Program-made: the position numbers and the translations under genes | Part shown: positions 21,440-49,287 of the stretch, in pieces | Layout of the letters: every line of letters begins with the position of its first letter | Numbering within the stretch: the stretch's first letter is position 1 | Virus record (IMG/VR): IMGVR_UViG_3300023184_000027 | Coordinates: 124,001 to 188,000 of that record | Source: a virus | Reading direction: 5' to 3' (one strand) | Length of the DNA: 64,000 bases | Notes under the pieces: generated by a model | The model's input: the letters and a program-made list of their open reading frames with translations, nothing else | Database searches by the model: none | What the model was told of the DNA's origin: nothing

Positions 21440-24400
21440 TTATATATTCTCAAAAGAAGCTCCGGTTGGAGTAATATAGAATGTGATATCTATAAATTCT
21501 AATGATTTGGTTGGTTTGATATAAATCTTACCAGTCATTTGATTTCTGTCTAAATCAGCAGCATCTGATGATACTGTTACACGGAAATCATATAAACCTC
21601 TATCTCTTCTGATAGCATCCAAAATAGGGTTAACAGCGTCCAAGAAGTCTTGTCTTACTTTAGCGTCGTTTTGTTCAAACAATAATCTTACAGATACCGC
21701 AGAAATCAATTTACGAGCTTGAAGTAATAATCTTCTAACATTGATTCTATCTAAAGCCGATTGTCTTACTTGAAGAGTTTTATTACCCCAAATTACAGTA
21801 CCAACATCAGAGAAAGTAGCAATTGGGTTAATACGACCTTGATAAAGTGTATCTCTATCTTCTTGGGTTAGTTTACGTCTCGCTTTAACCGCATTTACAA
21901 TACCTCTTGTGTAACCCGCCGCAGCGAACCAAGGGAAAGCAATGTTATCAGTTAATGCTAAATTTCTCGTAACCTCAGCCGTTGCCGGTAAGTAGATTTG
22001 AGTATTGTTAACACTATCTCTTGTTAATACCCAAGGGTAGTAAGTTGCCGTGTAATTAGAATCTACACCTATTTGGTCTAAATTATCCACAGCTTCTTGA
22101 GGGTAGATTAAATCTAATTGGTCTCCGGTAGAAGGTACAAACATATTGTAATCAGGAGTTGTTGTAATATACAACGAATCCGCTCTATCATTCTCAATCA
22201 TATCAATAGCACTTTCAACTAAATCTGAATTGTTAAGATAATCAATACCCGGTGTTACAAAAACATTGATGTTAACCGCCTCAGGATTAGAAAATGTCAT
22301 TTGTCCTAATTTATATGCGTAATAATCAGTGTTACCATAATCTTGAGTATTGTCCCCAACTGTAATTTGTTTAAATGCTCCCCAACCTGTTGCTGTAGGA
22401 TATTTAATCGAAGGACAAGAACCGTGTAAGTAACCATTTCTACCTAATACAAACGTATCACCATTTGTTCTGTGTTCTCTGTAGATATCCCACCCGTCAA
22501 AACCTCCTTGAACAAGGAGACTGAATTTACGAGAATATAGTCTATAGTAAGGACTTGATTCGTTATCAGGGTCTTTAGTGAATGTTGCATCTCCAACATA
22601 GAATGCTGGTGTACCACTTGTTGCAAAAGCATTAGGAATTAAGATACTATTAGCGTCTTTATCCATGTGGAAACCTTTAGTTCTTGTTGACCAATCATCA
22701 CCTGTGATATCATTACAAACATCTAACGGAAGTTGTTTACCTTTATAACCAAAGAAATCAGCATCAATACCAATACTATCAGATATACCAAGATAAGTTC
22801 TTCTTACATTGTCACCACCACTTCTAGTTGCGTCATCCGCTCCTGAACCTAATCCAAATGGGGGGTTATAAACAACCTCACCAGGATAATCGTATTTAGT
22901 TTTCATAATCGGGAATGGTGATTTAACACCTGCGTAATCTCTAGAATTAAACCCTAAAAATCCACAAGGAAGAGCGTCCATTGGGGCATCTTCGTTAATC
23001 TCAATCATAACATATTTTGAATTTAATTCGTACTCACCATCCATAGTACCAATTTTCTTAGCAATGAATGAATTGTCGTTTATATTCATATTACAATTTG
23101 TAAATTTCTCAAGAACAACAGGTGCACTATCTGAATCATAAAAATCTCTAACTAACACATCAAAAGTTCCATTGTTAAATGAAATATTTGCGATAGATAT
23201 TTTAACCTCTGTGTTAGCAGCTTCACCATCAGCGATTGTTGTAAATTTAAATAAGTTGTAAACTTTATTACCTCTTAATTCAGATACAACCCAAGGAGAT
23301 GTTGGTGATTGATATTTTTCTAAGTACCAAGCGATTGATGTTGGGTCATTTTGTTGTCTAGCATTAGGTAATGCTGTTAATTGACAATTTAAACCTCTAA
23401 TATACCCTTTTCTATATCCGTATGTTAATAATGTTTGATATCTCTCTTCTACATACAATGGAACTGTTGTTCTTGGTTTTGCAAAATTGGACGAACCAAA
23501 TACTTTACTAATATATTTAGAATCAGAATTTTGGAATGAGGTTTCAAAGAAATATGACTCACCATCTTTATTAGTAACATTTAAACCAAAAGTAGAATAT
23601 GGGTTTTTAGTAATTCCTGAATAAACTGAAGTACAATCTATGGAAACATCTGTTAAACCAGATACTTCATAAACAGCTCCGTCATCACTACCGTAAGTAG
23701 CTAATCCTCTTGAACGAAGTGTTGCAATAACTAAATCGTCAAAATCAGTATAAGCCATTCCTGAATAAACATAAATTTCACCTACAACTGAACCTGAATA
23801 ACAAGATTTAGTTGTACCTGTGTTAGGTGTTCCAGTATTACCAGCAATATTAACATTACAAGGTACTACAGTTTCAACACAAACAGTCCAAGTAGTTGTA
23901 ACACTTTCATCTTCTGAAAGTAAATTATAAGATAAACATCCACTTGAAAAATCGTTAGCCGTATGTCCACTAATTTGATTTGTCAAAATTGACACATTTC
24001 CTGCACAAGTATTGAACCCACAAACAATTTTTGATAAGTCTACACCTACCGGAACGACAACGTCTATTCTATTTGTGTTATAATTAATACTACCAATTGT
24101 TGTAGCACTTAAACTTGATATAACAATTTTTGCATCACTATGAATTCCTTGTATTATAGTGATTGTGTCACCAACTTGATACCCCGTCCCTGGTGAATTA
24201 ATCGTTACTCCGGTAATCACATTACTAACATTAACTGCAACATTAACCGTTAAACCAGTTCCGTAAGTACTACCTGATGTTGTACCACTTCCTGCGGAAT
24301 ATCCTGTTCCACCTGATAATGAACCAGTGTTAAAACCTGAAACATATCCGCCAACACTAAATCCAAAGAAAGTAGCACAAGTTGATGAGGTAAATGTTGG

Positions 24401-25240
24401 AACAATAGTGTCTATAACACCATAAAAAGACGAACCCGTATATGAACCACCACCAATATTGTCAAACAATGAATAATACCAAGGGTCGTTTTGTGGTGCT
24501 GTGTAATCAGCTAAATCTGAACTAACATTTTCAACACCAAAAACATTTGTTGATGCTGTATATGATGTTAATCCTGAATAACTACTTGTTGGTATTGTAC
24601 CAAAATATGAAATACCTGAATACGAATCGCCATAATTGGTAATTGAGTTAAATATTAAATTATTAATATCTGAACGAAGAGTTGAGATGCTACCGTTAAA
24701 TAATTCATAAGGTAAATCTATTCTATCTGTTATGAAATCTTGTAAATTATCTCCAGTATCAGTTATAGATGATAAACTATCATTACAACCTGAAAAGTCA
24801 TAATGATACACATATGTTTCATAACTATCACAACCATCAACACAATCAACTATTGTTGGAACATCACAATAAAAATCTATTGTGGTTGGGTCTACATTTG
24901 CTTTTGTTGTGATTGACCAAGATGGTCCCGCATCATATCCGGAAAGACCTAAAACTCTAGTTACAAATAATTGATTAGATTGTTGTAAATATGCTTTAGC
25001 GATATAGGACGCCTCATACTTTGGTATTTGTGTGTTTATAAATTTTTCAGGGGAAGTTCCTCCAAAATACGCCGAGAATTCATCAAAATTTCGTATAAAA
25101 ATAGGTTCGAAGGCTGGACCTTTTAAGGTTTCACCAACAATACCTAATGTAGTTACACCCACACTTTGGGCTACGAAACTTAAATCAACTTCAGAAGTAT
25201 ATACTCCAGGAGATACGAATACTTTACTGTTTGATGCCAT
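21440..25240 (-). CDS. 18: Contractile tail sheath protein, gp18-like, with large insertion
   Basis: The N-terminus MASNSKVFVSPGVYTSEVDL is the standard start of phage sheath proteins, followed by VTTLGIVGETLKGPAFEP. The C-terminal 400 residues include WFAAAGYTRGIVNAVKARRK, LYQGRINPIATFSDVG, VRRLLLQARKLISAVSVRLL and the final GKIYIKPTKSLEFIDITFYI, all typical of gp18. The protein is 1266 residues against about 659 in T4. The extra length is mainly a G/S/T-rich, beta-type region (residues about 115-560) with cysteines and a GTGYxVGDTITI element. That region is probably exposed on the outer face of the sheath. The protein surrounds the tube and contracts at infection. It has a TATTTATC box 37 nt upstream. 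Confidence 0.9.
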   Translation of the reverse strand: MASNSKVFVSPGVYTSEVDLSFVAQSVGVTTLGIVGETLKGPAFEPIFIRNFDEFSAYFGGTSPEKFINTQIPKYEASYIAKAYLQQSNQLFVTRVLGLSGYDAGPSWSITTKANVDPTTIDFYCDVPTIVDCVDGCDSYETYVYHYDFSGCNDSLSSITDTGDNLQDFITDRIDLPYELFNGSISTLRSDINNLIFNSITNYGDSYSGISYFGTIPTSSYSGLTSYTASTNVFGVENVSSDLADYTAPQNDPWYYSLFDNIGGGSYTGSSFYGVIDTIVPTFTSSTCATFFGFSVGGYVSGFNTGSLSGGTGYSAGSGTTSGSTYGTGLTVNVAVNVSNVITGVTINSPGTGYQVGDTITIIQGIHSDAKIVISSLSATTIGSINYNTNRIDVVVPVGVDLSKIVCGFNTCAGNVSILTNQISGHTANDFSSGCLSYNLLSEDESVTTTWTVCVETVVPCNVNIAGNTGTPNTGTTKSCYSGSVVGEIYVYSGMAYTDFDDLVIATLRSRGLATYGSDDGAVYEVSGLTDVSIDCTSVYSGITKNPYSTFGLNVTNKDGESYFFETSFQNSDSKYISKVFGSSNFAKPRTTVPLYVEERYQTLLTYGYRKGYIRGLNCQLTALPNARQQNDPTSIAWYLEKYQSPTSPWVVSELRGNKVYNLFKFTTIADGEAANTEVKISIANISFNNGTFDVLVRDFYDSDSAPVVLEKFTNCNMNINDNSFIAKKIGTMDGEYELNSKYVMIEINEDAPMDALPCGFLGFNSRDYAGVKSPFPIMKTKYDYPGEVVYNPPFGLGSGADDATRSGGDNVRRTYLGISDSIGIDADFFGYKGKQLPLDVCNDITGDDWSTRTKGFHMDKDANSILIPNAFATSGTPAFYVGDATFTKDPDNESSPYYRLYSRKFSLLVQGGFDGWDIYREHRTNGDTFVLGRNGYLHGSCPSIKYPTATGWGAFKQITVGDNTQDYGNTDYYAYKLGQMTFSNPEAVNINVFVTPGIDYLNNSDLVESAIDMIENDRADSLYITTTPDYNMFVPSTGDQLDLIYPQEAVDNLDQIGVDSNYTATYYPWVLTRDSVNNTQIYLPATAEVTRNLALTDNIAFPWFAAAGYTRGIVNAVKARRKLTQEDRDTLYQGRINPIATFSDVGTVIWGNKTLQVRQSALDRINVRRLLLQARKLISAVSVRLLFEQNDAKVRQDFLDAVNPILDAIRRDRGLYDFRVTVSSDAADLDRNQMTGKIYIKPTKSLEFIDITFYITPTGASFENI

Positions 25241-26566: not shown

Positions 26567-27001
26567 TTATTTTGTTATAAAAATTTTATTTTTTAAATTA
26601 ATCATTTCCACTTCATTGGCGTGAAATATAGGTTCTTCGGTGTCTTTCATAACATAAGAATTATACTTGTATGGGTTGTAGGTGACAATATTATTGTTAG
26701 GTTCTTCTGGTAAATTCTCACAAGGGAATATACAATAGTCCATTAAAGTTCCGATAACAAATGAATGTACGTTTTTTCTTTTTTCTTTTAAAACTTTTTC
26801 TCTACCACCGGGTCTAACTCTAAACTCAACATCTTTTAATTTAACATAATCGGCATGAAATATAACTAAACTTTTGTATATAATAGAAAATGTTTGTTTA
26901 TGTAGGTTATAATAAAGCATAACTTTTTTACCGATATAATCGTTATCTGAATAATTTTCAAATAATCTTTTTGATTGAGATTCTGTTATTAATATTTTCA
27001 T
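26567..27001 (-). CDS. Small protein with MKILITE leader (candidate internal head protein)
   Basis: This 144-residue protein is not recognised beyond its leader MKILITESQSKRLFENY. The leader is shared, nearly unchanged, with the next two genes upstream. I-T-E fits the (L/I)-x-E site cut by the T4 gp21 prohead protease, and T4 internal proteins carry short leaders of this type (MK... ending in E) as capsid-targeting sequences. The body is basic in the middle (FRVRPGGREKVLKEKRKN) and beta-rich. Its ATG shares one base with the stop codon of the upstream gene (TAATG), so the two are translationally coupled. Packaging and injection with the DNA is inference. Confidence 0.65.
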   Translation of the reverse strand: MKILITESQSKRLFENYSDNDYIGKKVMLYYNLHKQTFSIIYKSLVIFHADYVKLKDVEFRVRPGGREKVLKEKRKNVHSFVIGTLMDYCIFPCENLPEEPNNNIVTYNPYKYNSYVMKDTEEPIFHANEVEMINLKNKIFITK

Positions 27002-27405
27002 TATTCGTAATATGCTGATACCGATTTAACCGGTAAATTAAATTTATCTTCAACCCATTTTTTCATAGGTTCTCTCCAACTACTTCCAAACATATTGTCT
27101 AAATGTTCACCATATTCACCCCATACCTCTACAATTGGTGCCCTGTCTTTATGTGGTTTACTTGATGGTTCATCACTATAGTAATCAACATTAAGATAAT
27201 TAAATACAATATCAGAATAATCTTCACCAGCCCAAGTACCACCTTTATAAAAATGTAAAAGGTTTTCATCTTCAGGATTTTCCTGCCAATCGTCACCGTC
27301 GTAATTTGAACCATAGACCCAATCAATTTCATTTGAGTCTAAATAACCATCAATATACTTATATATTGAATCAAATAATTTACTTTCTGTTATTAATATT
27401 TTCAT
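27001..27405 (-). CDS. Small acidic protein with MKILITE leader (paralogue pair, copy 2)
   Basis: This is a 134-residue acidic protein starting MKILITESKLFDSIYKY. It is a paralogue of the next gene upstream. Both have YYSD followed by a P-I-hydrophobic strand, and both end NMFG, W, EPMKxW, a charged helix and LPVK. Aspartate and tryptophan are common in the middle (WVYGSNYDGDDWQENPED). It overlaps both neighbours by one base as TAATG. The leader suggests targeting into the prohead, where the mature protein would begin at the serine after E7. The body function is unknown; acidic DNA-mimic or takeover proteins would look like this, but that is conjecture. Confidence 0.65.
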   Translation of the reverse strand: MKILITESKLFDSIYKYIDGYLDSNEIDWVYGSNYDGDDWQENPEDENLLHFYKGGTWAGEDYSDIVFNYLNVDYYSDEPSSKPHKDRAPIVEVWGEYGEHLDNMFGSSWREPMKKWVEDKFNLPVKSVSAYYE

Positions 27406-27794
27406 TAGTCGGCTACGATTGTTTTTACTGGTAAATCAAAGTTATCTTTAAACCACTCTTTCATAGGTTCTACCCAATAATTTCCAAACATATTGGTTAA
27501 TTTTTCATAATCAGTAACAATTAATATTGGTGTCTTTTCTCTAAAAGATTTATTTGAATGTTTATCACTATAATATTCCTTTTGAATATATGCAAAAGCA
27601 ACACCATCTTGGTCGTAATCACCTTCATATATATGATAAAAATACTCTCGTATATATGGGTTTTCCTCATCATCATATTCATCATCATTCCATGTGGTTG
27701 GATGAAAATAATCTATGTTACTTACATCAAAAGTATCTTCAAGATAATTATATATTGTTCTATATAATTTATTTTCTGTTATTAATATTTTCAT
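27405..27794 (-). CDS. Small acidic protein with MKILITE leader (paralogue pair, copy 1)
   Basis: This is a 129-residue acidic protein starting MKILITENKLYRTIYNYL. The C-terminal half (NMFGNYWVEPMKEWF, then LPVKTIVAD) matches the neighbouring copy at 27001-27405, so the pair arose by tandem duplication and has since diverged. The middle has WNDDEYDDEENPYI, a dense acidic run. The ATG shares one base with the stop of the neck-like gene upstream. The conserved leader against a diverged body indicates that the leader itself is under selection. Confidence 0.65.
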   Translation of the reverse strand: MKILITENKLYRTIYNYLEDTFDVSNIDYFHPTTWNDDEYDDEENPYIREYFYHIYEGDYDQDGVAFAYIQKEYYSDKHSNKSFREKTPILIVTDYEKLTNMFGNYWVEPMKEWFKDNFDLPVKTIVAD

Positions 27795-28678: not shown

Positions 28679-30454
28679 TTGGAAAACAATACATCTGAAA
28701 ATTCTAATTTAACAGTAGAACAACGAGCAATATCCCTTCTTGAAACTTATCAGGGAGCGAATAACTATATCCTAAAATTAAAATTACAAAAGGAAACTAA
28801 TAAGAGATTCTTCCCTACTCGGGCACAATCTGACTACATAATAAATTATCACGAAGTAATACCAAAGGTGGCTAAAAGATGGGTTGATTTAGACCCCTAC
28901 TTCGCCAAAAAAATTGCTGATGAAAAACTATTAACAAATATTCCCGAACAAGTATGGGTGGAAAAGTTATTAGTTGAGAAAGAAAAATCGTATCATATTT
29001 GGGGTAAAGTTTTATCCGGTGAAACTATTAACGAATTTTGGTTACCGAAGGGTGCCTTAATTAAAACTCACACAATTAAAGATGTTGTGGTTGATTATGA
29101 AAAATATTCTAATAGACCACCACTTGAACATCAAAAACTTGCAATTGAGAAACTTGCCGGGTCTAAAAGATTTATTTTAGCCGACGATATGGGACTTGGT
29201 AAGACAACTTCCACCATTATCGCCGCATTAGAAACGGGAGCGAAGAAAATATTAATTGTTTGTCCGGCATCCCTAAAGATTAACTGGCAAAGAGAGATTG
29301 AGAATTATACCGATAGAAGTGTTTATATTTCTGAAGGTAAGAATTTCTCAATAGAACACGATTTTGTGATTGTAAATTACGATATTCTTAAAAACTTTTA
29401 CGACCTTAAAGGTAAGACAGAATCTTTAATCACTCAAGGAAATTTTGATTTAATTATTTTGGACGAAGCTCATTATGTGAGTAATGGACAAGCTGCGAGA
29501 ACCAAACTTGTTAATAGTTTTTCTAAAAATTGTGAAAGAGTGTGGTTGTTAACGGGGACACCTATGACAAATCGTCCGATGAATTACTTTAACCTATTAT
29601 CTCTTATTGAGAGTCCGGTTTCCCAAAATTGGATGGCTTACGCAATACGATATTGTCAAGGTTATCAATTTATGGCGGGAAAAAGAAAAATATGGAATGT
29701 TTCGGGAGCATCAAATTTAGAAGAATTAAGAGACAGAACATCAAGACAAGTATTGAGAAGATTAAAAACTGAAGTTTTAGATTTACCTGAAAAAATTATT
29801 ACCCCAATTTATTTAAGATTAAAATCAAAACTTTATGAAGGGTTGATGGGAGAATACTATGATTGGTATAATAAAAACCCCGATGAATCAACATCACTTA
29901 CCGTTCAGTTCAGTAAGTTAATGAAAGTTCGTCAAGTGATTGCTGAAGAAAAAGTTAAAGACACAATAGAATTAGCTGAAAATATTTTGGAACAAGATAA
30001 AAAAGTTATTATTTTTACCAATTTTACGGACACATTAAATCAGATTGCCGAACATTTTGGAAAAATTGCGGTTAAATTAGATGGTTCAACATCAAAACCT
30101 CAACGACAATACGCTGTTGACCAATTTCAAGATAATGAAAAGATTAAAGTGTTTGTTGGTAATGTGAAGGCAGCCGGAGTTGGTATAACTTTAACCGCCG
30201 CTGAAGCTGTAATCATCAATGACTTATCTTTTGTTCCTGGTGACTTAGCACAAGCTGAAGATAGAGCATATAGATATGGACAAAAAAATTCGGTATCAGT
30301 TTATTACCCAATATTCGATAATAGTATAGAAGGAATCATTTATGATATGGTGAATCATAAGAAACAAAATATTAATACCGTAATGGGTGATAATATAGAA
30401 GAGAAGGGTGATTTCATCGGAGAACTTATGAATAAAATTAACAACCGAGGTTAA
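28679..30454 (+). CDS. SNF2/SMARCAL1-type DNA helicase or translocase
   Basis: This 591-residue superfamily 2 protein has the Snf2 motif set. Walker A is ADDMGLGKTTS (near residue 170), then motif Ia VCPASLKINWQREI and Walker B DLIILDEAHYV. Motif III is LLTGTPMTNRP, motif IV-V is VIIFTNFTDTLNQI with VKLDGSTS, and motif VI is AQAEDRAYRYGQ. The R-x-G-Q ending and a compact size point to SMARCAL1-like annealing helicases or phage branch-migration helicases rather than T4 UvsW itself. It probably remodels forks or recombination intermediates. The start is TTG at 28679. No in-frame ATG exists upstream, and the first internal ATG lies inside the helicase core. A hairpin overlaps its stop codon. Confidence 0.88.
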   Translation: MENNTSENSNLTVEQRAISLLETYQGANNYILKLKLQKETNKRFFPTRAQSDYIINYHEVIPKVAKRWVDLDPYFAKKIADEKLLTNIPEQVWVEKLLVEKEKSYHIWGKVLSGETINEFWLPKGALIKTHTIKDVVVDYEKYSNRPPLEHQKLAIEKLAGSKRFILADDMGLGKTTSTIIAALETGAKKILIVCPASLKINWQREIENYTDRSVYISEGKNFSIEHDFVIVNYDILKNFYDLKGKTESLITQGNFDLIILDEAHYVSNGQAARTKLVNSFSKNCERVWLLTGTPMTNRPMNYFNLLSLIESPVSQNWMAYAIRYCQGYQFMAGKRKIWNVSGASNLEELRDRTSRQVLRRLKTEVLDLPEKIITPIYLRLKSKLYEGLMGEYYDWYNKNPDESTSLTVQFSKLMKVRQVIAEEKVKDTIELAENILEQDKKVIIFTNFTDTLNQIAEHFGKIAVKLDGSTSKPQRQYAVDQFQDNEKIKVFVGNVKAAGVGITLTAAEAVIINDLSFVPGDLAQAEDRAYRYGQKNSVSVYYPIFDNSIEGIIYDMVNHKKQNINTVMGDNIEEKGDFIGELMNKINNRG

Positions 30455-30464
30455 TTCGGTTGTT
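30440..30464 (+). promoter_or_regulatory. Hairpin over the helicase stop codon
   Basis: AACAACCGA and TCGGTTGTT form a perfect 9-bp stem with a 7-nt loop that contains the TAA stop. Only a weakly U-containing sequence follows, so termination would be partial at best. A TATTTATA box begins 5 nt further on. Confidence 0.5.
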
Positions 30465-30468
30465 AAGA

Positions 30469-30476
30469 TATTTATA
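30469..30476 (+). promoter_or_regulatory. Candidate late promoter box (superoxide dismutase fusion)
   Basis: The plus strand reads GATATTTATATGAATAACAA, 19 nt before the ATG at 30496. It nearly matches the box and flanking bases of the tail tube promoter. Confidence 0.5.
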
Positions 30477-30495: not shown

Positions 30496-32034
30496 ATGAA
30501 AAAGATTGAAGAAAAAATCAATCTCATAACAGAAGAACTAAAAAAAGTTGAAACCCTCGAAAATCAACAAATGTTCATTAATGAGATGAAAAAAATAGGG
30601 ATAGAGAAATTACCCTACGCCTATTCAGCACTAAAACAATTTATTGATGCTGAAACAATGAATTACCATTATAATAAACACTATAAAGGATATGTTGATA
30701 AATTAAATTCAGCCCTTAAAAAGAAAGATTATGGTGATTTAGAATTAGAAGAAATTATTAAATCAATAAGTAGATTTGATAAGACAATTAGGAACAATGC
30801 CGGAGGAGCTTTTAACCACGCATTGTTTTGGAAAATGTTAACCCCAAAAAAACAAACACCAAATGGTGAAATTATTAGGCAAATTAAAAAAGATTTTACT
30901 ACCTTTGTCAAGTTTAAAAATAAGTTTGAGGAAATTGCTCAAGAAAAATTTGGTTCAGGTTGGGTTTGGTTAGTTTTAACAAAACGAAATACCTTAAAAA
31001 TTGTAACCACAGAAAATCAAGACAACCCTCTTATGAATGTTATAGACGACGGAGGTTATCCAATATTAGGATTAGATTTATGGGAACACGCATATTATTT
31101 AAAATATAGAAATAAAAAAAATGACTATATTAAGAATTTTTGGAAATGTGTTAATTGGGAATTTGTTAATAAACTATATACAATGAGAATTGAGACTAAA
31201 CTAAATGAATCATTAAATTTTAAATCTGTAATTTCTGAAGGTAAATCAGAAAGATGTAGTAGAGAAGAAAACGAGGCCATTCGTATGGTTTTTAATATCA
31301 ACCCGAAAATTAAACAAATTTTTATGGAAGGTATTAATCACATCCTTAAAGAAGTTTTTCCGGATAACTATTATGGATATGGTGAATACGCTAAAGGTGA
31401 AATGTCGGGAGTGTATGATTTAGAAAGAGATGGTCGTTCTGTCTTAAATAAATTAAACACAAACTATAGTTGTTTCTGTGTTCTTCTTAATGATACAAAT
31501 CAAGTTTTAAGTTCTAAAAATTTACCAAACATTAAATTAATTGGTTTAAAACCATTGGAACAAATTGAAGAAACTAAAAAATTACTTATTTTCTTACACG
31601 AATATAAATTTAGAATATTCACACAAACTTCAGCAACATTTCAAAACATTATGAAAGTTTTAACCCAAACAGATACTTGGGGACAAGCTCGTGAAGACAA
31701 AACTGTTGAGATTTTAAAGAAAAAATTTGGAAAAGATAATGTTAACGCCATCGGTAAATTAGGTAGTAAAGCTGATATGATTGGTGGTATAGATTGTGAA
31801 GTTATTATTAATGGTAGAAAATTAAGTAGTCAAATTAAACCATTTGGAAGTATTGAAACTACCGGTGAAGAAATTACCGTTATTGGTTCAGGTGCCGTTA
31901 AAAAATACTATACAGATTGGTTAATTTTCACTAGAAATAATAAAGATGTTTTAATTTTCAGAAATAAAAATTCAAAAATTGTTAATGGACAATATGTTTT
32001 TCCTAAAGGAGATTTAATTTATTCATTAAATTGA
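30496..32034 (+). CDS. Fe/Mn superoxide dismutase fused to a PD-(D/E)xK-like nuclease domain
   Basis: Residues 38-230 of this 512-residue protein form a complete Fe/Mn superoxide dismutase. The four metal ligands are present: H58 in MNYHYNKHY, H108 in NNAGGAFNHALFW, and D194 and H198 in LDLWEHAYYLKY. The second-shell tyrosine is present at about 66, as is FGSGWVWLV. After a linker with SVISEGKSERC (residues 244-254), the rest is a separate domain. Its C-terminal part (residues about 395-470) has QAREDKTVEILKKKFG, KADMIGGIDCEVIING and SSQIKPF, the layout of a PD-(D/E/Q)xK nuclease fold. The N-terminus MKKIEEKINLITEE ends in I-T-E and the linker has I-S-E, both fitting a prohead protease site. 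This suggests a packaged polyprotein, which is inference. A late-type promoter box lies upstream. Confidence 0.8.
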   Translation: MKKIEEKINLITEELKKVETLENQQMFINEMKKIGIEKLPYAYSALKQFIDAETMNYHYNKHYKGYVDKLNSALKKKDYGDLELEEIIKSISRFDKTIRNNAGGAFNHALFWKMLTPKKQTPNGEIIRQIKKDFTTFVKFKNKFEEIAQEKFGSGWVWLVLTKRNTLKIVTTENQDNPLMNVIDDGGYPILGLDLWEHAYYLKYRNKKNDYIKNFWKCVNWEFVNKLYTMRIETKLNESLNFKSVISEGKSERCSREENEAIRMVFNINPKIKQIFMEGINHILKEVFPDNYYGYGEYAKGEMSGVYDLERDGRSVLNKLNTNYSCFCVLLNDTNQVLSSKNLPNIKLIGLKPLEQIEETKKLLIFLHEYKFRIFTQTSATFQNIMKVLTQTDTWGQAREDKTVEILKKKFGKDNVNAIGKLGSKADMIGGIDCEVIINGRKLSSQIKPFGSIETTGEEITVIGSGAVKKYYTDWLIFTRNNKDVLIFRNKNSKIVNGQYVFPKGDLIYSLN

Positions 32035-32055: not shown

Positions 32056-33168
32056 ATGTCAATAATCCCAGAACCTCAAAGAACCGCATTATACACAAGA
32101 ATTAAACATTTACTTGGAGCACCACTTCGTTCGATAGAAATTGAAGACGAAATGATGGATAGTTTATTAGAATTATCTATCGGTGATTATTCTCAATATG
32201 TCCAAGATTGGTTAATCGAGTCTCAATGGACATCCTTATATAATCTTAATCTTGATACTCAATCATTATCAAAAGCTTTTATAACAAAAAGTTTAGATTT
32301 TGAAACGAGATACACCTATGCGTATTCTAAAATTGTTGGATTACAGGCTGGTGGTGATTGGGAACTTAAAAAAGATTATATACAACTTCAACGGAATCAA
32401 CAAATATATGAAATTCCTGCAAATAGAGAAATTAATGAAGTTTTATGGTTTACACCCGCAGAACTTAATAATTTATTATTTGACCCTTGGACTTTTGGAG
32501 CTTTAGGTGCCGGTGGTTTAGGAGGACCTGGTGGTTTTTCACAAATGGGCATGACAGGTTCATTTTTTATGATGCCAGCGTTTGATATGTTATTGAGAAT
32601 GCAAGAAATTAATATTCAAAGAAGAATAATTGCTGGTGAATTAACGTATAGAATTACCGCACTTCCTGAAGGTAAAAAAGCGTTACACTTAATGAATACT
32701 CCAGGTGGTAAATTTGATTTCGGTAATTCAACATTAACAAGAGGTAAAGTATGGTATTGGTACTACGATGTTGGTCCGGCAGATAGAGATAAATGTTTAA
32801 AAGCAAATCCGGATATTATTACACTTCCTTCTGATGTTCCATTTGAAGAAATTTCTTGGGTTGATTTAAATAATCCCGCTCAACAATGGGTTAGAAGATG
32901 GTTTACCGCATATGTAAAACAAACATTGGCGAGAGTTAGAGGTAAATTTAGTGGAAATGTTAAAACACCCGATAGTGAATTAACAATGGATTACGCATCA
33001 TTAGCAACAGAAGGTGCCGACGAAAAATCAAAACTTGAAGAGGAATTAAAATTAAGATTGGAAAGATTACGACCTGATAAAATGATGGAAAGGGAAGCTT
33101 TATTGGCCGAGAATTTAAATAAATCTTTGAAATTTAGAGCAATGCCAAGACAAATTTATGTAATTTAA
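32056..33168 (+). CDS. Neck / head-completion protein (gp13-like)
   Basis: The N-terminus of this 370-residue protein, LYTRIKHLLGAPLRSIEIED, then MMDSLLELSIGDYSQYVQDW, is the pattern of phage neck adaptor proteins: a short helix, L-G-A-P, an acidic strand, then a D-x-A/L-x-E helix. The middle has a Gly/Pro-rich loop (LGAGGLGGPGGFSQMG), then LRMQEINIQRRIIAGELTYR and LPEGKKALHLMNTPGG. These match the beta part of gp13-like proteins of T4-like phages. The C-terminus is a charged helix. Such proteins sit under the portal and close the head after packaging. It has its own promoter box and is followed after 5 nt by a small gene. Confidence 0.6.
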   Translation: MSIIPEPQRTALYTRIKHLLGAPLRSIEIEDEMMDSLLELSIGDYSQYVQDWLIESQWTSLYNLNLDTQSLSKAFITKSLDFETRYTYAYSKIVGLQAGGDWELKKDYIQLQRNQQIYEIPANREINEVLWFTPAELNNLLFDPWTFGALGAGGLGGPGGFSQMGMTGSFFMMPAFDMLLRMQEINIQRRIIAGELTYRITALPEGKKALHLMNTPGGKFDFGNSTLTRGKVWYWYYDVGPADRDKCLKANPDIITLPSDVPFEEISWVDLNNPAQQWVRRWFTAYVKQTLARVRGKFSGNVKTPDSELTMDYASLATEGADEKSKLEEELKLRLERLRPDKMMEREALLAENLNKSLKFRAMPRQIYVI

Positions 33169-36451: not shown

Positions 36452-39400
36452 TTAAAATGACCCAATATCACCAACAATATTCCACTCACATATGTTTGTC
36501 AAAATATATCGTGCATTACTTGCGGATACTGATGTGTATAAAAACCCGGGTACATCTAATCTAACACCAATTGCGACGTTATTGGTTAATCGTAATTGCG
36601 ACCATTTAATTAACAAATTATTATAATTTGTTGAGCTCATCGGTGTAGTGTTGGTAAACATATATATCATTGATTGAACTTTACTAATATTCCAGTTGGA
36701 TATGTCTTGACTAAAACTTGTATTGTAAGAAAACATTGACGACATATTATTCACATTACTTACATTCCAAGAGTTAAGGGGTTGATTGAATGATGAAGTG
36801 TTAAACATTGAGCTCATACTGGTAACATTACTTACATCCCAATTATTGATTGATTGATTGAATAAATTATTTTCCGTAAACATTCCAGTCATATTAGTGA
36901 CTTTACTAACATCCCAATTACCGATTGGTTGGTTAAAAGATGACCTTCTAAACATATATGACATATCAGTAACATTACTCACATTCCAATTACCGATTGG
37001 TTGATTGAATGGTGTGCCATGGAACATATACGACATATCGGTAACACCACTCACATTCCAAGATGAAATATTTTGGTTAAATGATGAATTATAGAACATT
37101 TGAGACATAGACACAACATTACTAACATCCCAATTATTAATGTTTGGTTGATTAAAAGATGTGTTATAACTAAACATACCACCCATATATCGGATACCAC
37201 TAATATTCCAAGACGATATATCTTGATTGAATTGTGTACCATCAAACATAGATGATAAACTAGTAATATATCTTAAATCCCAAGAAGTAATATTATTAAT
37301 TGTTCTTATACTATGACATTTATAAAATAATCCAGAAATTGTTATATAACCATAATTTTCCTCTTCATCATAATCGGTAAGGTTTAAAACCCCAATAACA
37401 GAATCTAACGTTAAATTAACACAATAGCTAAATTGTGCGTATGTTCCCCCTCTTAAAGAGAAATTTCCCCAATTTAATATAGAATATATTTTATAGTTAT
37501 TTGGGTAAATACCACTATCCTCATAATCCAAAGCTTCGTCAGAATTAAATTCCCATCCACGCACTAAACCAGTTACCTTAATAATATAATAACCTATCGA
37601 CGAGTAAGTGTGGGCTCTATTTGCATAACTATTCACAGAAGTTGTTCCATCACCCCAATCTATCGTACCACCATAATTTCCATCAACAATATATGGGAGA
37701 GTTATTGTATCGTTTATAACTAATGTTCTCCACCTTGATGTAAAGTCATTTCCATACGGATTTGGTGTTCTTGTTGGTGTCCGAGTCATTGTAGGGGTTT
37801 GAGTTATTGTAGGTGTTGGACTCATTGTTATTGTAGGTGTTGGTGTTGGTGTAGGGGCAACAACTAATGTTGTTAAACCATTTTGATATAAATAAACATC
37901 TGAAAATACAGAACTTCCATCAACATATCTTTGAAATATTTTTACATATATAAAACTTACGTAAGTTGAGTAGGTTTGGAACGTAGTCGTTGTTGTACAA
38001 GTCATATTATTAGTGTTGGCCCATGTAACATTATCAAACGAATAATATATTGACATAAATTGACAAGGTAATGTATTACCAATTACCATATAGACCTGAT
38101 ATACTGTTGTACTTCTTTGAATGATACTAGATATGGTTGGTACTAATTGAGGTCCACTCACTATTGGTGTTGTAGTTGGTGTTGGTGTAATTGTTGGTGT
38201 TGTGGTTTTTGTTGGTGTTGGTGTCGGAGTTACCGAGGGAAACGTGTATAGAACAACATTTGAATAATCACTATTAGTACTATTACTTGAACAATATTGG
38301 ATAAGTCTAACATATACATCTCCGGTTGTTTTAAACGAATTAAAACTAATTGGGGAAGAGCAATTTGTCTCCCCATAAGTTACACTAGCGTATCCCCAAC
38401 TAATGTTATCGTAAGAATATTGTACTATCACACTATTACAGGAAACTGGAGGAGTAAAATCAACTAATAATGTGCTGGATGAGAGATTACTAACACTTAT
38501 AATTGTTGGTGGAAGACACGATGTTTCCGATATCGGAGTAATTACCACCCCTCCCGAATATAGAGATATGTCAGAATAAATCACTGTTTGACTACCAACA
38601 TAAGTTTGACCAATTTTAATATAGACAATCCCTGTATAACTAAATGAGCCAAAGGGAAATAATGAACCACAATTATATACTCCGTAATAAGACCAATCAA
38701 CATTATTAAAAGAATAATATAGTATTATATTTAGACAAGCACTGGTATTCCCTGGTGTTACAAATATATTATATGTTGAACCACCTGTTCTAACAATGTT
38801 AGTTATTACAGGAAGATTTTGAGCTCCTAATCCCGGGGTTGGCGTTGGTGTAGGTGTTGGTGTGGGTGTTGGTGTGGGTAGAGAGGTTGTGAAAGCGTCA
38901 TTTGTATATAACGCAATATTTGAATAACTCTCAACACCATAAATTGATATTTGTTTAATTTTCACATATATAGTACCTGAACTATCCAAAGAGGTACTTA
39001 GACCAACGGGTGAACTACAACTATTTGATGTACCACTAAACCATGTTATATTATCTAACGAACCATACGATAAAACACTATTACAAGGGTAATTATTTGC
39101 TGTTGTAAAATAAATTAAATAATAATTTATGGATACTCTTTGTACATTATAGATTATTGGTGTCTCATAAATTATACCACTTGTTTGTGTTGGTGTTTGT
39201 GTTGGTGTTTTAGTGTTTGTCGGTGTTGGAGTTGAAGTTTTAGTGTTTGTTGGTGTTTGTGTAGGTGTTTTAGTCGGAGTTCTTGTTGGTGTTGATGTTA
39301 ATGTTGGTGTCGGGGTTAGAGTTGGTGTTTTTGTTAAAGTTTTAGTTGGTGTTGGTGTTTTAGTTGGGGTTTTAGTTGGGGTTGGAGTTTTAGTTGGGGT

Positions 39401-42400
39401 TGGAGATAATCCTGGTGTTGGTGTTAGTGTTGGTGTTGGAGTTGGATTTAAACCTTTTGTTGGTGTTGGTGTTTGTGTTGGTGTTTTAGTTGGTGTTGGT
39501 GTTTGTGTTGGTGTTTTAGTTGGCGTTTTAGTTGGCGTTGGAGTTTTAGTGTTTGTAGGTGTTGGTGTTGGTGTAACTGATATAGCATCGCCGGTTATTA
39601 TCCAACCAAAAGTATTTATAAGCACACCTCGTGGATTGTCCTCTATTATGGTATATGTTAATCCGACAGCACCTAACGGAACATTATATTTTTTTATTGG
39701 TAACACCGACCATTTTAATAATAAATTATCATAATTTGTTAAGCTCATAGTACTTCCGTTAAACATGTTCTCCATGTTAACGACTGATTTAATATCCCAA
39801 TTTGATATATCTTGATTAAATAGTGTTGAATAGAACATACCTCCCATATGAGTCACATTACTAACATTCCAATTACCAATTGGTTGGTCAAATTGACAAT
39901 CGTAGAACATACCACGCATTGTAGTTACCCCACTAACATTCCAATTTTCAAGACTTTCATTATATTTTGAATTACGAAACATATAACTCATGTTAACAAC
40001 ACTATTGACATTCCAATCACCTATTGGTTGATTAAACGATGAGACGTAAAACATATAAGACATATCTTTAACGTTACTAACATTCCAGGAGTTAAGAGAT
40101 TGATTAAATAATGATGTGTTAAACATATGTGACATATTGGTAACACCGCTAACATTCCAACTAGAGATATCTTGATTAAATTTTGAAGACGCGAACATAT
40201 ATATCATATTACGAACATTACCAACGTTCCAATTTGAAATATTTTCATCAAAAATTGTTGCGTTAAACATATAACTCATATTAATAACTTTTGATGTGTC
40301 CCAATTATTTAAATCTTGATTAAATGGTGTTGAATAAAACATGTATGTCATATTGGTAACATTACTAACATTCCAATTACCTATTGGTTGATTAAACGAT
40401 GCGTTATAAAACATAAATGACATATCGGTAACATGACTAACAACCCAATTTGATATATCTTCATTAAATATTGACCCTCTAAACATCCCTAACATAGTCG
40501 TAACACTACTAACATCCCAATTTGATATACCCTGATTAAACACAGACTCTCTAAACATACTTGTCATAGTCGTAACACTACTGACAACCCAATTACCGAT
40601 TGGTTGATTAAATGATGAAGAGTAAAACATAGATGACATATCTTTAACATTATTAACATTCCAATCACCGATTGGTTGGTTAAATCTTGATAAAGTAAAC
40701 ATATTTGACATATCAATAACGTTACTAACATCCCACATAGAAATATCTTGGTCAAATAACGATGAAGTAAACATACTTCTCATATCTGTTACATTACTAA
40801 CATCCCAAGTCGATATGTCTTGGTTAAATAATGAATCATAAAACATGGTTGCCATATTGGTAACACTACTAACGACCCAATTACCGATTGGTTGATTAAA
40901 TATTGATTTATAAAACATGTTTGACATATCGGTAACATTACTAACATCCCAATTTGATATATCTTGATTAAACGATGTGTTATAAAACATTCCTGTCATA
41001 TTTGTTATATTACTAACATCCCACAATTCTATATTATTAATTAAGGTTAAATTGGTACAATTAAAGAATAACCGGTATAAACTAGTTGTGCCTGTTAATG
41101 TTAATGCGTCGTTAACATTGTCTAAAACTAAATTAGTACACCCATAAAAACAAGAAGTACTATTCCCTAAATTTAAACAACCCCAATTAACTATTGATAA
41201 GAGCTTAGTTTTGTCAATATTATTCCCAAAAGACCACTTTACTACCACACCAGTTATTGTAATTGTATAATCACCACCATCAGCATAAATGTGTTTTCTG
41301 TTTGCATAACTATTCACAGAAGTCGTTCCATCCCCCCAATCTATCGTACCACTATATGTTCCTCCGACTACATAAGGTAATGTAACACTATTAAATGACG
41401 ATTTTAACCTCCATGTTGATATAAAATCTAGATTATGTGATATTACTATTGGGGTGGGTGTAGGTGTTGGTGTTAGAGTTTCTGTTGGTGTATTAGTTGG
41501 GGTTGAAGTGTTAGTTGGGGTTAAAGTCAAGGATAATCCTGATGTTGGTGTAGGTGTAGGTGATAATCCTGGCGTTGGAGTTGGAGTTGATGTCTCTGTA
41601 GGAGTTGGAGTGGGTGTCTCTGTAGGAGTGACTTCAGGAGTGACTAATGTATAGTCAATATATACAACCTCACCAAAAGTGAAATTGGTGTTTGTTTGAT
41701 TTACTAATGTAATCCCCGCTTCCGAAACAGTGTCTATAAAATAACCACTTTCGTCGCTAAGTATCTGAACTGAATCTGACCCACCACTAAACACCGCAAC
41801 AGATTCATTCTGACCAATTGTAAGTAAAAAATTATTACCAACCATATTACCAAAATAATCGGTTTGATTAACACCATTATTATCAATGTTATTAAAATAT
41901 ATTCCACCATTCTCTGATATATTATTAGGGTTATTATCTGCAATATGTAAACTATAATTAGCCAATAATGTTTCACCTGATAATGGAATATCAATATTAC
42001 TTATTAAAGAATACGGAATACCATCATTTATTGATGATATATCGAGAGAATTAATTAATAATATGGATTCGGAAAATTTATACTGTGTGTTCTCAATAAA
42101 ATAACCATCAATTGTTATATCACCTACAATACAATCGATGGATGTTATTGGTAAATTTATAACTCCAGGTCCATAAACAAACCAACCAACCTTTATATCA
42201 CATAAATTAGTGTTAGAAAATTTACCTATGTTTCCTGTTGGGTTTTGATTGGTATATGGCCCTAAAAATGATTGAGTTGGGGTTGCAGTTGGAGTTGGAG
42301 TTGGAGTATTCGTAGGTGTTTGGGTTGGTGTTTGGTCCGGTGTTTGGTTTGGAGTTACTCGTATTCTTTCATATTTTATATCTGAAGGTGGCCAACTAAT

Positions 42401-42595
42401 ACTCGTTAACACTCTTATACGACCTAAACTATTATTACTAGAAGAAAAAGTCCCATTAATGCACCAAATATTTTTTATTTGGTTTGGCATTAACTCCACC
42501 TGTCTTTTCCAAACAGAATCAGACAAATTTTGAAAAGTTATAGTTATTTTTTCATCACCATCATTTATTACCACTAGTCTTTGACCTATTGACAT
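36452..42595 (-). CDS. Giant modular adhesin: Thr/Pro stalks, PKD-like, DUF285 and Fn3-like repeats
   Basis: This is a 2047-residue, probably fibre-like virion protein. In order it has an N-terminal beta domain, a short TP stalk (about 82-107), a beta domain, and a second TP stalk (about 320-382). A PKD-like domain with [17 protein letters not shown] follows, then 18 BspA-like DUF285 repeats of 24 residues (consensus [20 protein letters not shown]). A long TP stalk (about 1008-1137) leads to four Fn3-like domains of about 85 residues, each with a YSFDNVTW-type strand. Another TP stalk, a second PKD-like domain with nearly the same motif, and 9 further DUF285 repeats complete it. DUF285 repeats are surface adhesin modules in Bacteroidota, mycoplasmas and protists. 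It follows the protease gene by 24 nt. Host or glycan binding is inferred. Confidence 0.8.
36643..37279 (-). repeat. DUF285 repeat block 2 (9 copies)
   Basis: These are nine units of about 72-75 nt, each coding for 24 or 25 residues around WNVSNVxxMSxMF. They are preceded by a PKD-like domain whose DNA near 37620-37675 closely matches that near 41310-41360, indicating a duplication of the whole PKD plus DUF285 module. Confidence 0.85.
38838..39573 (-). repeat. Thr/Pro codon minisatellites in the adhesin
   Basis: Runs of ACNCCN codons (plus strand GTTGGTGTT-type) lie at 38838-38880 and 39184-39573. They encode TPTPT, TPTKTPT, TPTQTPT and TNTPT units. Shorter copies lie at 37770-37858, 38166-38230, 41449-41636 and 42277-42357. 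The protein stretches are extended, mucin-like linkers. Confidence 0.85.
39748..41022 (-). repeat. DUF285 repeat block 1 (18 copies)
   Basis: These are eighteen tandem units, almost all exactly 72 nt. Alternating subtypes are visible ([16 protein letters not shown] and [16 protein letters not shown]), suggesting expansion by duplication of unit pairs. The regular unit length makes copy-number change by slippage or recombination likely. Confidence 0.9.
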
Positions 42596-43769: not shown

Positions 43770-45446
43770 TTAACTCTCTTTTCTTAATGAACCATCGTAA
43801 TGTTCAAATCGGTCGTGTTCTGTTGGTGTTAACAATAATAATCCCGGATTGATTTTTCCTTTGACGGTTTCTTGATAACTATATGACATAAGGGTCTGTT
43901 CAAATGGATGCGCCCACTTTGTTTCTAAATAACATTTGTAATTGCCCTCTCTTGATAACACAATTGGCCAATTTGAAAGGTAGACTTCTCCTGTAACATA
44001 TGGTAACCCTTTGTGAATATGAATTTCTTTAAATTTTGTTTTTGGCGAATTGGGGTCTAAACCTTGAACAGGTAATTTAGGGTTGTTTGGCCAATGTTTT
44101 TGTCTAAAATCTTGGGGTACATTATACCAACTCCATTGTACACTATTATCACCAAAAAACTCACTAAAATTAAGTTTAAGAAAATCAAAATTTTCTTTAG
44201 CAAGTATATCTAATGATTTTTGATATAAGTTATCAACAAAACGGGGGAATCCATTTCTACAAACTTCACCTTTTTTAGGGTAAAACGCCATATCATCTTC
44301 AAACCACCAATAACAATCTAAATCAGTTTCGTCAAAATGTTCAGCAACAAATACTCTACCACCAACAATACCAATATTATCTTTTTTAATATGTTCAAAA
44401 CCATATTGCTCACATAGTTCAATATATCTCGGTGTTGTGGATAAATCTGTTGAGTTGTCTAATAAAAATTTCTTTGGTTTCTCCACAAAATCTTTATCGT
44501 AGTCCAACATAGATTGGATAAGAACTTCTAATTGTTTTGGTGAATTAAATGTAATGACATAAAGACCAACTTTTGATGTGTCTAAATTATTCACAATAAC
44601 ATCTTTAGATACTTCCGATTTAACCTCAACCGTCATATCTTTTAAATCTTCAAAAAACTTACCCATTAACCCATTACCATCTATTTCTGAATAAGTAATT
44701 AAGTTTGGGTACTTATATGTCATAATAGTAAATAATGATTCTTCAGTACCCATTAAACCATTTGAAAGGGTTTCATTCATTAATCCGTAATAAATGTTAT
44801 TAATTTCGGATATAACATCTTTTTTTCCACCAAAGAAACCTGCTCGAGCAACCATATTAACAGGTTTACCTGCTAAATCACATAACTCTTGATACTTGAA
44901 TCCGTGAATTTCACTATTAGTTTCATAAGGAAAACAAACAAAGTGGAAATTCTTAACTAATTTAGGTAATTTATCTAAAACTTTGTCATGAGTAAAGTAT
45001 CCAGGGTGGATTGTATTGGTTAATCCGGCATCAATCCAAAACATATATTCCGAATCAAACTTATCTAATATTTTCGCATCATGTAAAAGATAAACTTTTG
45101 ACATAACCAAAGGGTTATACATTTCTAATTTGGCTTGTGTTGAATCAGTTAACCAACCGACCTGATTATACCAATCAGGGTTTGTTCTTATCTTTTTAAT
45201 TTTATCGTAAAATTCGTTATTTTTAAACCAAGATAAATCTCTACGAACAAATTGAGTGTTTTCACTTCGTCGATTATTTAATACAAAATTCTCTAATTCT
45301 TCATCTCCAAAAATTATCATATTAACATCAACTTGTAATAATTGTTGAAACTTATCTAAATAATGTTGGAATGAACGGGACCACCCTTCTTGAAGGTCTC
45401 CTCTACCTATGTCCCATAATCCTGTAACTAATGTTATTTTACTCAT
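43770..45446 (-). CDS. Two-domain glycosyltransferase (HtrL/YibB-like plus GT-A-like)
   Basis: The N-terminal half of this 558-residue protein, with TLVTGLWDIGRGDL, FVRRDLSWF, MYNPLVMSKVYLL and YMFWIDAGLTNTIHPG, follows the HtrL/YibB pattern linked to surface polysaccharide synthesis. The C-terminal half starts near residue 290 (VGLYVITFNSPKQLEVLI) and has YWWFEDDMAFYP, a DxD-like nucleotide-sugar site. It looks like a second GT-A glycosyltransferase. It is the last gene of a seven-gene sugar-modification operon, one base after its neighbour. The acceptor is unknown; virion stalks or host glycans are candidates. Confidence 0.7.
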   Translation of the reverse strand: MSKITLVTGLWDIGRGDLQEGWSRSFQHYLDKFQQLLQVDVNMIIFGDEELENFVLNNRRSENTQFVRRDLSWFKNNEFYDKIKKIRTNPDWYNQVGWLTDSTQAKLEMYNPLVMSKVYLLHDAKILDKFDSEYMFWIDAGLTNTIHPGYFTHDKVLDKLPKLVKNFHFVCFPYETNSEIHGFKYQELCDLAGKPVNMVARAGFFGGKKDVISEINNIYYGLMNETLSNGLMGTEESLFTIMTYKYPNLITYSEIDGNGLMGKFFEDLKDMTVEVKSEVSKDVIVNNLDTSKVGLYVITFNSPKQLEVLIQSMLDYDKDFVEKPKKFLLDNSTDLSTTPRYIELCEQYGFEHIKKDNIGIVGGRVFVAEHFDETDLDCYWWFEDDMAFYPKKGEVCRNGFPRFVDNLYQKSLDILAKENFDFLKLNFSEFFGDNSVQWSWYNVPQDFRQKHWPNNPKLPVQGLDPNSPKTKFKEIHIHKGLPYVTGEVYLSNWPIVLSREGNYKCYLETKWAHPFEQTLMSYSYQETVKGKINPGLLLLTPTEHDRFEHYDGSLRKES

Positions 45447-45447
45447 A

Positions 45448-46206
45448 TTATCTTTCTAAATATTGTAATTTATAAAACTTATCGGCGTTATCAGATGCAC
45501 TTTCTGAGCGGTACCACCAACAACCACCTCTTTCATTTGGTAAATGTCCGATAATTGGAAATGATTCTACTCTTGGGGAGAAATCGGTATCTTTATCATA
45601 ACTAACTACCCATTTTTCAATATTGTGTTTACCCATATATGCTGATAAAATTATATCGTCACTCCAAGATTCACCAACAAATTCAGTAAAAAAATCGGAT
45701 TTAAAAAAACTTCTCTTATATGATGCTGTTTTGTAACCCTCAATAATCTTAACTCTAACATCTTGTGTAACTGTTGTACAAAAATGACAAGTACCATTCA
45801 AAGCCGACATACCAGCAAACCCAATTACAGCATTTGGGTATTGTTTTCTTTTTTCTAAATGATATTCTATAAAACCATCTTCGTAAGATAAATCATCATC
45901 AACAATAATAATAATAATATCTTCATTTTCGTCTGTTCGTAAAATTGTTGGTAAAATTTTAGTCATAGACCCATAATCATCAGTTCTAAATATTTTTAAT
46001 TTTGAATCGGTAATTTCCGACAACCAAGAAGGTATTGAATACTCTTCGTTTGTTTTTTTAACAATATATGGTATGTTAAGATGAATTTCATAATTAGTAT
46101 ATGAAAGGGTTAATAATCTATTTATAACTGGTTGTAAACCCCCATTTGGGTCGTGGTAATTTAGTCTTGAAGGAATAGTTGTTAAACTAATAATTATTTT
46201 TTCCAT
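45448..46206 (-). CDS. GT-A-type glycosyltransferase
   Basis: This 252-residue protein starts MEKIIISLTTIPSRLNY, a common opening of small glycosyltransferases. It has the DxD-type motif IIIVDDDLSYEDGFIEYH near residue 100, and later EFVGESWSDDIILSAYM with an acidic pair typical of the acceptor side. The tail has GGCWWYRSES. The fold and motif support transfer from a nucleotide sugar. The sugar and acceptor are not determined. It lies between a methyltransferase-like gene (9 nt) and the two-domain transferase (1 nt). Confidence 0.72.
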   Translation of the reverse strand: MEKIIISLTTIPSRLNYHDPNGGLQPVINRLLTLSYTNYEIHLNIPYIVKKTNEEYSIPSWLSEITDSKLKIFRTDDYGSMTKILPTILRTDENEDIIIIIVDDDLSYEDGFIEYHLEKRKQYPNAVIGFAGMSALNGTCHFCTTVTQDVRVKIIEGYKTASYKRSFFKSDFFTEFVGESWSDDIILSAYMGKHNIEKWVVSYDKDTDFSPRVESFPIIGHLPNERGGCWWYRSESASDNADKFYKLQYLER

Positions 46207-46215
46207 TATTGTAAT

Positions 46216-46911
46216 TTATTTATTTTTATTAATATCGTATTTTAAAAACAAAGTTTGTCTCCCATTAAATAATGGGATATACCCTTCTTCTAATAAAACA
46301 GGAGATAGTAAAGCATCTTTACCACCATCATTTGTTATGTAATCAGTATCATCAATTAAAATTAAATTTGTGTCTGATAGTTTATCTTTTGATGCGTAAT
46401 ACGCCTCTAAATGTTTTTCAGCATACATTGGAGTACCTTTATCCCAACCATCTAAAAATAAGACATCAATTTTAGATGGAAATTCTTTTAAAAATTCTAT
46501 ACCGTCTTTTGGTATTACAATATTTAAATTATTAGGTACCTCTCGACCTAAATTAGAATAAGACCATTTAACACCATTAATACAATTTATATCAATATCT
46601 ACGGTATGTACATCAAACCCTGCTTCTACCCAAAAAAAACCTCCGTGACCATCACAACAACAAGGGGGTGATAAATAAGAATTGTTTTCACTATTATAAT
46701 AATCAACACATCCTTGTGTAACAGATAATCTTGTTGACCCAATTTCAACAACGGTTTTCATTTGCAAATAGTTAGCGATTTCTATAGCTTTTTTTAAATA
46801 ATATGCGGGTTTAGAACGTTTAAAATCATAATCTTCTCCGGTTAAATTATCGTATGTCCAAAATTTCTTATCAATTTTGAAATTATGAACCATTTCATAT
46901 ATTTTTTTCAT
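46216..46911 (-). CDS. SAM-dependent methyltransferase-like protein
   Basis: This 231-residue protein has a class I methyltransferase layout: motif I TVVEIGSTRLSVTQG (near residue 55), an acidic strand end VHTVDIDINC, and IDVLFLDGWDKG and LILIDDTDYITN later. A cluster PPCCCDGHGG (residues about 83-92) interrupts the first loop and could bind metal. In this cassette it would methylate a sugar or a glycan-linked group. It sits 5 nt after an FkbM-type gene. Motif I is somewhat irregular, so the call is at family level only. Confidence 0.6.
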   Translation of the reverse strand: MKKIYEMVHNFKIDKKFWTYDNLTGEDYDFKRSKPAYYLKKAIEIANYLQMKTVVEIGSTRLSVTQGCVDYYNSENNSYLSPPCCCDGHGGFFWVEAGFDVHTVDIDINCINGVKWSYSNLGREVPNNLNIVIPKDGIEFLKEFPSKIDVLFLDGWDKGTPMYAEKHLEAYYASKDKLSDTNLILIDDTDYITNDGGKDALLSPVLLEEGYIPLFNGRQTLFLKYDINKNK

Positions 46912-46916
46912 TTTTT

Positions 46917-47600: not shown

Positions 47601-47619
47601 TATATTTTAATTTATTTTT

Positions 47620-49283: not shown

Positions 49284-49287
49284 TTTT

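Follow-up and report, generated by a model that had tools for sequence, protein, structure and literature searches.

A phage fusion of superoxide dismutase and a probable nuclease with conserved prohead-protease-type sites in its leader and linker

Why would a virus join a superoxide dismutase to a nuclease-like domain in a single gene, and do the two halves stay together once the protein is made? The question is raised by a gene found in a window of 64,000 nucleotides, which corresponds to positions 124,001 to 188,000 of a viral record of 207,952 bases (G000). On the forward strand of this window, positions 30496..32034 form a complete frame of 512 amino acids, with its ATG at 30496 and its stop at 32034, exactly where a preliminary description of this DNA had placed it. 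The putative dismutase-nuclease precursor can be divided into a leader ahead of the dismutase fold (residues 1-30; 30496..30585), a Mn-type superoxide dismutase domain (residues 31-229; 30586..31182), a linker outside both folds (residues 230-255; 31183..31260) and a C-terminal domain (residues 249-512; 31240..32031), all on the forward strand, the last of them having in the AlphaFold model a helical N-terminal part and a probable PD-(D/E)xK nuclease core. Judging by the conservation of its sequences, the fusion is a real and widespread arrangement that is constrained at its (L/I)-x-E sites.

The dismutase and the C-terminal domain

The N-terminal half certainly belongs to the Fe/Mn superoxide dismutase family, as residues 36-226 match PF02777 (E 2.5e-39) and PF00081 (E 1.6e-23), both above the cut-off. 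The metal ligands H58, H108, D194 and H198 (three His and one Asp) are invariant in 69 distinct fusions, so that the dismutase and the four ligand positions named in the preliminary description are borne out. The domain also carries N174-Q175-D-N-P and, at residues 100-104, NNAGG, which together we take to be the Mn-type arrangement, and the outer-sphere positions that were checked are invariant or nearly so in the same 69 sequences. In sequence comparison with the PDB, the homology to solved dismutases (3tjt, E 7e-57) spans from residue 31-38 to about residue 229, and in the C-domain model the first predicted helix starts at about residue 256, thus delimiting the leader and the linker.

In a scan that detects close relatives only, most of the nearest bacterial dismutases came from Flavobacterium, with at most 48% identity. 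Among phages, the free-standing Fe/Mn dismutases of the Pseudomonas phage PA5oct group and of Vibrio phage 2.275.O are of the same family, at 27-28% identity, but are single-domain genes of about 180-190 amino acids without a nuclease domain. The PA5oct homologue (L105, 4031-4579) is annotated as 'hypothetical protein' with an ESI-MS/MS note, meaning that it was seen by mass spectrometry; the same note is borne by non-virion enzymes. Bacterial-looking dismutase genes with 44-48% identity to the query were also encountered in short phage-named records of 1.5-8.8 kb (OR845917, OR851122, OR850395, OR850012 and OR846937), which may be host DNA.

Regarding the second half, a PD-(D/E/Q)xK-like core had been proposed from the sequence. 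The core GGIDCEV...SQIKP is indeed present, and its D433, Q446 and K448 are invariant in 61 of 61 sequences dereplicated at 94%. Across this alignment the residues follow the order of a PD-(D/E)xK core: E400, a candidate active-site Glu on a long helix (31693..31695, forward strand), likewise invariant in 61/61, then D433, a candidate metal-binding Asp (31792..31794, forward), and Q446-I-K448, a candidate (D/E/Q)xK motif (31831..31839, forward). Structure prediction, which the preliminary description had proposed for residues 255-512, also points to a PD-(D/E)xK fold. Since the active-site loop came out poorly in a first model built on 35 sequences, the model used here is one from the 61-sequence alignment, with pLDDT 91.1, pTM 0.85 and a weakest block of about 60 around residues 419-428. 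Its predicted layout is a helical first half, the long helix with E400 and then strands with D433 and Q446-x-K448.

When either model was compared with the PDB by Foldseek, the top 12 matches were all members of the PD-(D/E)xK superfamily, namely I-Ssp6803I and the Hjc Holliday-junction resolvases. The best of them, I-Ssp6803I, reaches E 0.026 with a probability of 0.98-0.99 and a TM of about 0.4 by target length; because no match passes E 0.001 and TM stays below 0.5, the fold is considered only probable. The proposed core stands as a motif of invariant residues, with a fold match that is specific yet weak. Unlike these enzymes, the C-domain has an extra helical half at its N-terminal side, and it shares no detectable sequence similarity with them. 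Its spacing from the Asp to QxK is 13, which agrees with that of I-Ssp6803I and Hjc, and I-Ssp6803I is itself noted for the QxK variant.

In sequence searches, the C-domain of the window copy had no match of useful E in Pfam or PHROG and nothing reliable in the PDB, and no relative of it was found in the genome-contig scan or the phage collection; a weak PF20290 match was obtained for 6 of the 61 members. Profile comparisons with the T4 head-completion nuclease gp4 and the DNA-end protector gp2, which had single T4 sequences as targets, were negative. Only the fold search revealed UniProt A0A6J5L953, a protein of 501 amino acids from an uncultured Caudovirales phage that is named solely 'superoxide dismutase', part of whose predicted structure matches the C-domain with TM 0.88 and 36% identity.

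Glutamate sites in the leader and the linker

The preliminary description pointed out LITE in the leader (residues 10-13) and VISEG in the linker (residues 245-249), both of the form (L/I)-x-E. Both are present; outside the folded domains there are, however, four such sites and not two. In the leader, the proposed cleavage sites are ITE|E at E13 (30526..30534), whose motif is seen in 29/34 representatives, and INE|M at E30 (FINE|M; 30577..30585), whose motif is seen in 34/34 with N, T, F, V, L or S as the middle residue. In the linker, they are LNE|S at E238 (31201..31209), with Glu in 34/34 and the full motif in 31/34, the three exceptions reading M-x-E or V-N-E, and ISE|G at E248 (31231..31239), with Glu and the full motif in 33/34, one representative lacking it. 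All four lie on the forward strand, and the counts refer to 34 fusions dereplicated at 93%. The E30 and E238 sites, which had been overlooked, are conserved better than LITE, the least conserved of the four, whose motif is missing in 5/34.

Chance accounts poorly for the motifs at E30, E238 and E248, because they are kept in 34, 31 and 33 of the 34 sequences, compared to 6.0, 3.6 and 4.1 expected when the same residues are shuffled (9.5 for E13). Residue shuffles ignore shared ancestry, so a comparison among columns weighs more: except for the start Met, E30, E238 and E248 are the most conserved columns of the leader and the linker, at 1.00, 1.00 and 0.97 against a mean of 0.55 for the rest. 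The middle residue varies, with N/T/F/V/L/S at position 29 and S/T/N/K/M/V at position 247, position 237 being mostly N, as the L/I-X-E rule allows. Elsewhere in the protein, (L/I)xE is kept in only 6-9 of 14 representatives of an earlier set, with the exception of LWEHAY, the metal motif of the dismutase. The P1' residue at E30 is Met in 32/34 representatives, which leaves room for M31 being a start codon, either internal or a former one.

The locus, its relatives and other leader-bearing proteins

The gene was said to lie beside neck genes, which holds for one side: downstream, a neck gene for a head-tail adaptor adjoins it (32056..33168, forward; PHROG 211, E 2.8e-10), but upstream there is a SNF2-type helicase gene (28679..30454, forward; PF00176, E 6.5e-31). 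Both are kept in relatives, and 11/11 loci compared have helicase, [dismutase-]nuclease and neck gene in this order. Between the helicase gene and the precursor gene lies an inverted repeat that is terminator-like by consensus match only (30438..30466, forward), followed by TATTTATA, a probable late-promoter element of the phage, 27 nt before the ATG (30469..30476, forward). The pattern TATTTAT[AC] occurs 11-50 nt before the start of 10 of the 38 ORFs of the window, against 0.8 expected (ORFs at 11972, 17003, 19927, 21440, 28299, 30496, 32056, 42620, 49288 and 60803). Several of the genes it precedes are virion genes, among them the neck gene, the gene at 21440-25240, whose product is presumably the tail sheath, and further large genes in the virion region. 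The enrichment makes TATTTAT[AC] a probable late-promoter element for these phages. No enrichment before the ORFs of the window was seen for the T4 late consensus, TATAAATA in sense orientation, and sigma-70-like sites were no more frequent than in shuffles. The late-type promoter suggested before is hence retained as a motif enriched at virion genes, not as the T4 consensus. Further along, 36452-42595 (reverse strand) encodes a protein of 2047 amino acids in which MFxxxxFNQxIxxWxVSxVxxM units recur together with long PT-rich linkers and which the relative L002 lacks at this position, and a glycosyltransferase/methyltransferase-like cluster, recognized by eye, adjoins virion genes at 43770-50535 (reverse).

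Among the matches listed in similarity-ranked searches, which are no census, there are at least 96 distinct proteins: at least 68 fusions (IMG/VR), at least 27 with the C-domain only and one with the dismutase only. PF02777 was not found anywhere in four related records of 272-318 kb that may be fragments (G002, G003, G004 and G007). On the unrooted C-domain tree, the presence and absence of the dismutase needs two changes, of which one may be a gain or a loss; the other is a clear recent loss in the L315 group, inside the fusion clade, where the leader is joined to the IISEG linker. The leader is kept in fusions and partly kept in forms without the dismutase. The two enzymes are encoded by separate neighbouring genes in L298, the break falling in the linker: the dismutase ends with KINNLKK*, just at the place of the LNE site, and the nuclease begins with a leader of its own, ILLTE|K. 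Such a split would be expected if the precursor matured into its two halves. Some nucleases without the dismutase have imperfect sites, such as VLIQT (L080) and EIPTEK (L307), suggesting that cleavage may not be needed everywhere.

Among the relatives searched, G001-G004 encode a gp21-type prohead protease (PF03420, E about 1e-24). One of them, G001, is a 322-kb relative with a 97% identical copy of the gene, possessing a T4-type capsid protein (PF07068) as well as the protease. The gp23-type capsid proteins of the relatives read FLINE|ATSDG or FLINE|ATGEG in their N-terminal region, and this FLINE|A site presumably parallels that of T4 gp23. The capsid gene was not found in the window's own record, which is a fragment. 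In T4, gp21 cleaves its substrates after L/I-X-E, the propeptides of mature head proteins have 7 to 65 residues, and Alt, like many of the internal proteins, is packaged and later ejected (PMC9026906). T4 Alt begins with MELITE, and T4 IPI contains STITE|A.

Short leaders of this kind recur in the same genome. Fifteen of its ORFs begin with MK-x(1-3)-[LI]xE-[SNDQAGT], whereas shuffles give 0.3 and none of 996 internal Met residues starts such a motif, and [LI]xE falls exactly at residues 5-7 in 21 ORFs, compared to 2.6 per position. DNA for MKxxITE leaders was found in 7 of 8 related records (1-10 matches each; control 0). Near the precursor gene, on the reverse strand, MKILITE|S leaders are borne by an L5-gp82-like protein (26567..27001), where the leader sits just ahead of the known domain PF25735 (residues 24-135, E 7.7e-29), and by the product of 27001..27405; the N-terminal sequence encoded at 27405..27794 has MKILITE|N. 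The 15 ORFs with short MKxx(L/I)xE leaders would make a possible set of head-packaged proteins. They are located at 26567-27794 (reverse) of the window and at 0.7-98.7 kb of G000 (L096-L100), and include a DHH-like protein besides the L5-gp82-like one. A longer leader with (L/I)xE sites was observed in a protein of 219 amino acids encoded at 4393-5052 (reverse), with the N-terminus MKKIDNQILEELARYNSINNYITE|QEAVLPPPP.

As for the host, these uncultured giant lake phages probably infect Bacteroidetes, since the relatives G001 and G011 carry a bS21 gene (PF01165), a signature with which the mostly Flavobacterium closest dismutases fit. In G001 this gene is on the opposite strand, beside the capsid and protease genes, antisense in the head-gene cluster. 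Freshwater phages encoding bS21 are predicted to infect Bacteroidetes (Chen 2022, PMC9723584).

Packaging, its alternatives and its meaning

Prohead-protease-type sites are thus conserved in the leader and the linker, as read from the sequences, and relatives encode the protease. Such sites make it rather likely that the gene product is packed into the head as a precursor and that the prohead protease trims it and parts the two enzymes. Its expression would coincide with that of the virion genes, as suggested by the common upstream motif, and the leader, by analogy with the capsid-targeting sequences of T4, would act as a propeptide that carries the precursor into the prohead core. There, a protease of the T4 gp21 type would cut after E30 (perhaps also E13), E238 and E248, as the conserved sites, the matching site of the capsid protein and the protease gene of the relatives suggest, so that the head would contain the dismutase (31-238) and the nuclease (249-512) as two proteins. 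Both enzymes may then enter the next host with the DNA, the dismutase shielding from superoxide either the DNA as it arrives or the newly infected cell's metal enzymes, and the nuclease, as the conserved part of the locus, processing DNA on entry or while it is packaged. Inside the head, such a nuclease could be a danger to the phage's own genome, unless it were specific or inactive there. The complete scheme, a two-enzyme polyprotein matured in the capsid as one of perhaps at least 15 packed and injected leader-tagged proteins, with the dismutase as an entry factor delivered with the nuclease, is proposed tentatively, at somewhat less than even confidence.

An uncleaved, bifunctional cytoplasmic fusion, made late, in which the dismutase guards the replicating phage or its host and the (L/I)xE motifs play a structural part in leader and linker, would suit the intact state of at least 68 distinct proteins and the adjoining helicase, which is not in any obvious way a virion protein. 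Such a fusion is nevertheless unlikely, given three site Glu residues that are nearly invariant within variable segments around a free middle residue, the protease and matching capsid site of the relatives, the same kind of leader on other genes and the split form of L298.

Loci without the dismutase retain the nuclease, which adjoins the neck gene in every locus that was compared, indicating that the nuclease is the core function of the locus; it might do the job of T4 gp4 or gp2 in head morphogenesis or DNA-end processing, with the dismutase as a passenger on its leader. This is improbable, as the domain has no profile similarity to gp4 or gp2 (a single T4 sequence each as target) and two relatives have a separate gp4-family gene elsewhere (PHROG 218, E 3e-11 and 7e-10), although none was found in three others. 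Lastly, the loss of the dismutase at least once, in the L315 group, marks it as dispensable, as it would be in a relic of gene fusion where one of the enzymes has no activity and remains solely as a partner in folding or packaging. Invariant metal ligands and invariant or nearly invariant outer-sphere positions in 69 sequences, together with nuclease core residues that do not vary in 61, make a relic very improbable.

A head-packaged precursor resembles T4 Alt and IPI-IPIII, whose propeptides are cleaved by gp21, in its conserved short N-terminal leader ending in (L/I)-x-E, in the T4-type protease and capsid protein of the same phage group and in being accessory, variable cargo. It differs in joining two enzyme domains in one precursor with internal candidate cleavage sites. 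Engineered T4 capsid-targeting fusions with beta-galactosidase, staphylococcal nuclease or EcoRI are also packaged and delivered via a cleavable leader (PMC9026906); those are laboratory-made, whereas the phage precursor is natural and would carry two cargoes, if packaged as proposed. Polyvalent phage proteins such as P1 DdrB likewise combine dissimilar activities in a single polypeptide, proposed to be injected together with the DNA, and some are processed, but by proposed autoproteolysis rather than by a prohead protease (Iyer 2017, PMC5512222); the word 'superoxide' is absent from that paper. Searches of the open-licence literature found neither a dismutase-nuclease fusion nor a phage dismutase described as packaged.

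If the packaging scheme is true, the capsid-targeting system of T4 would be extended from single proteins to a two-enzyme precursor, and phage dismutases could be given a possible site of action, in the virion and during the first minutes of infection. In that case, MKxx(L/I)xE leaders and (L/I)xE linkers would also give a sequence rule for listing injected proteins from genomes alone, covering a large uncultured phage group and testable by mass spectrometry.
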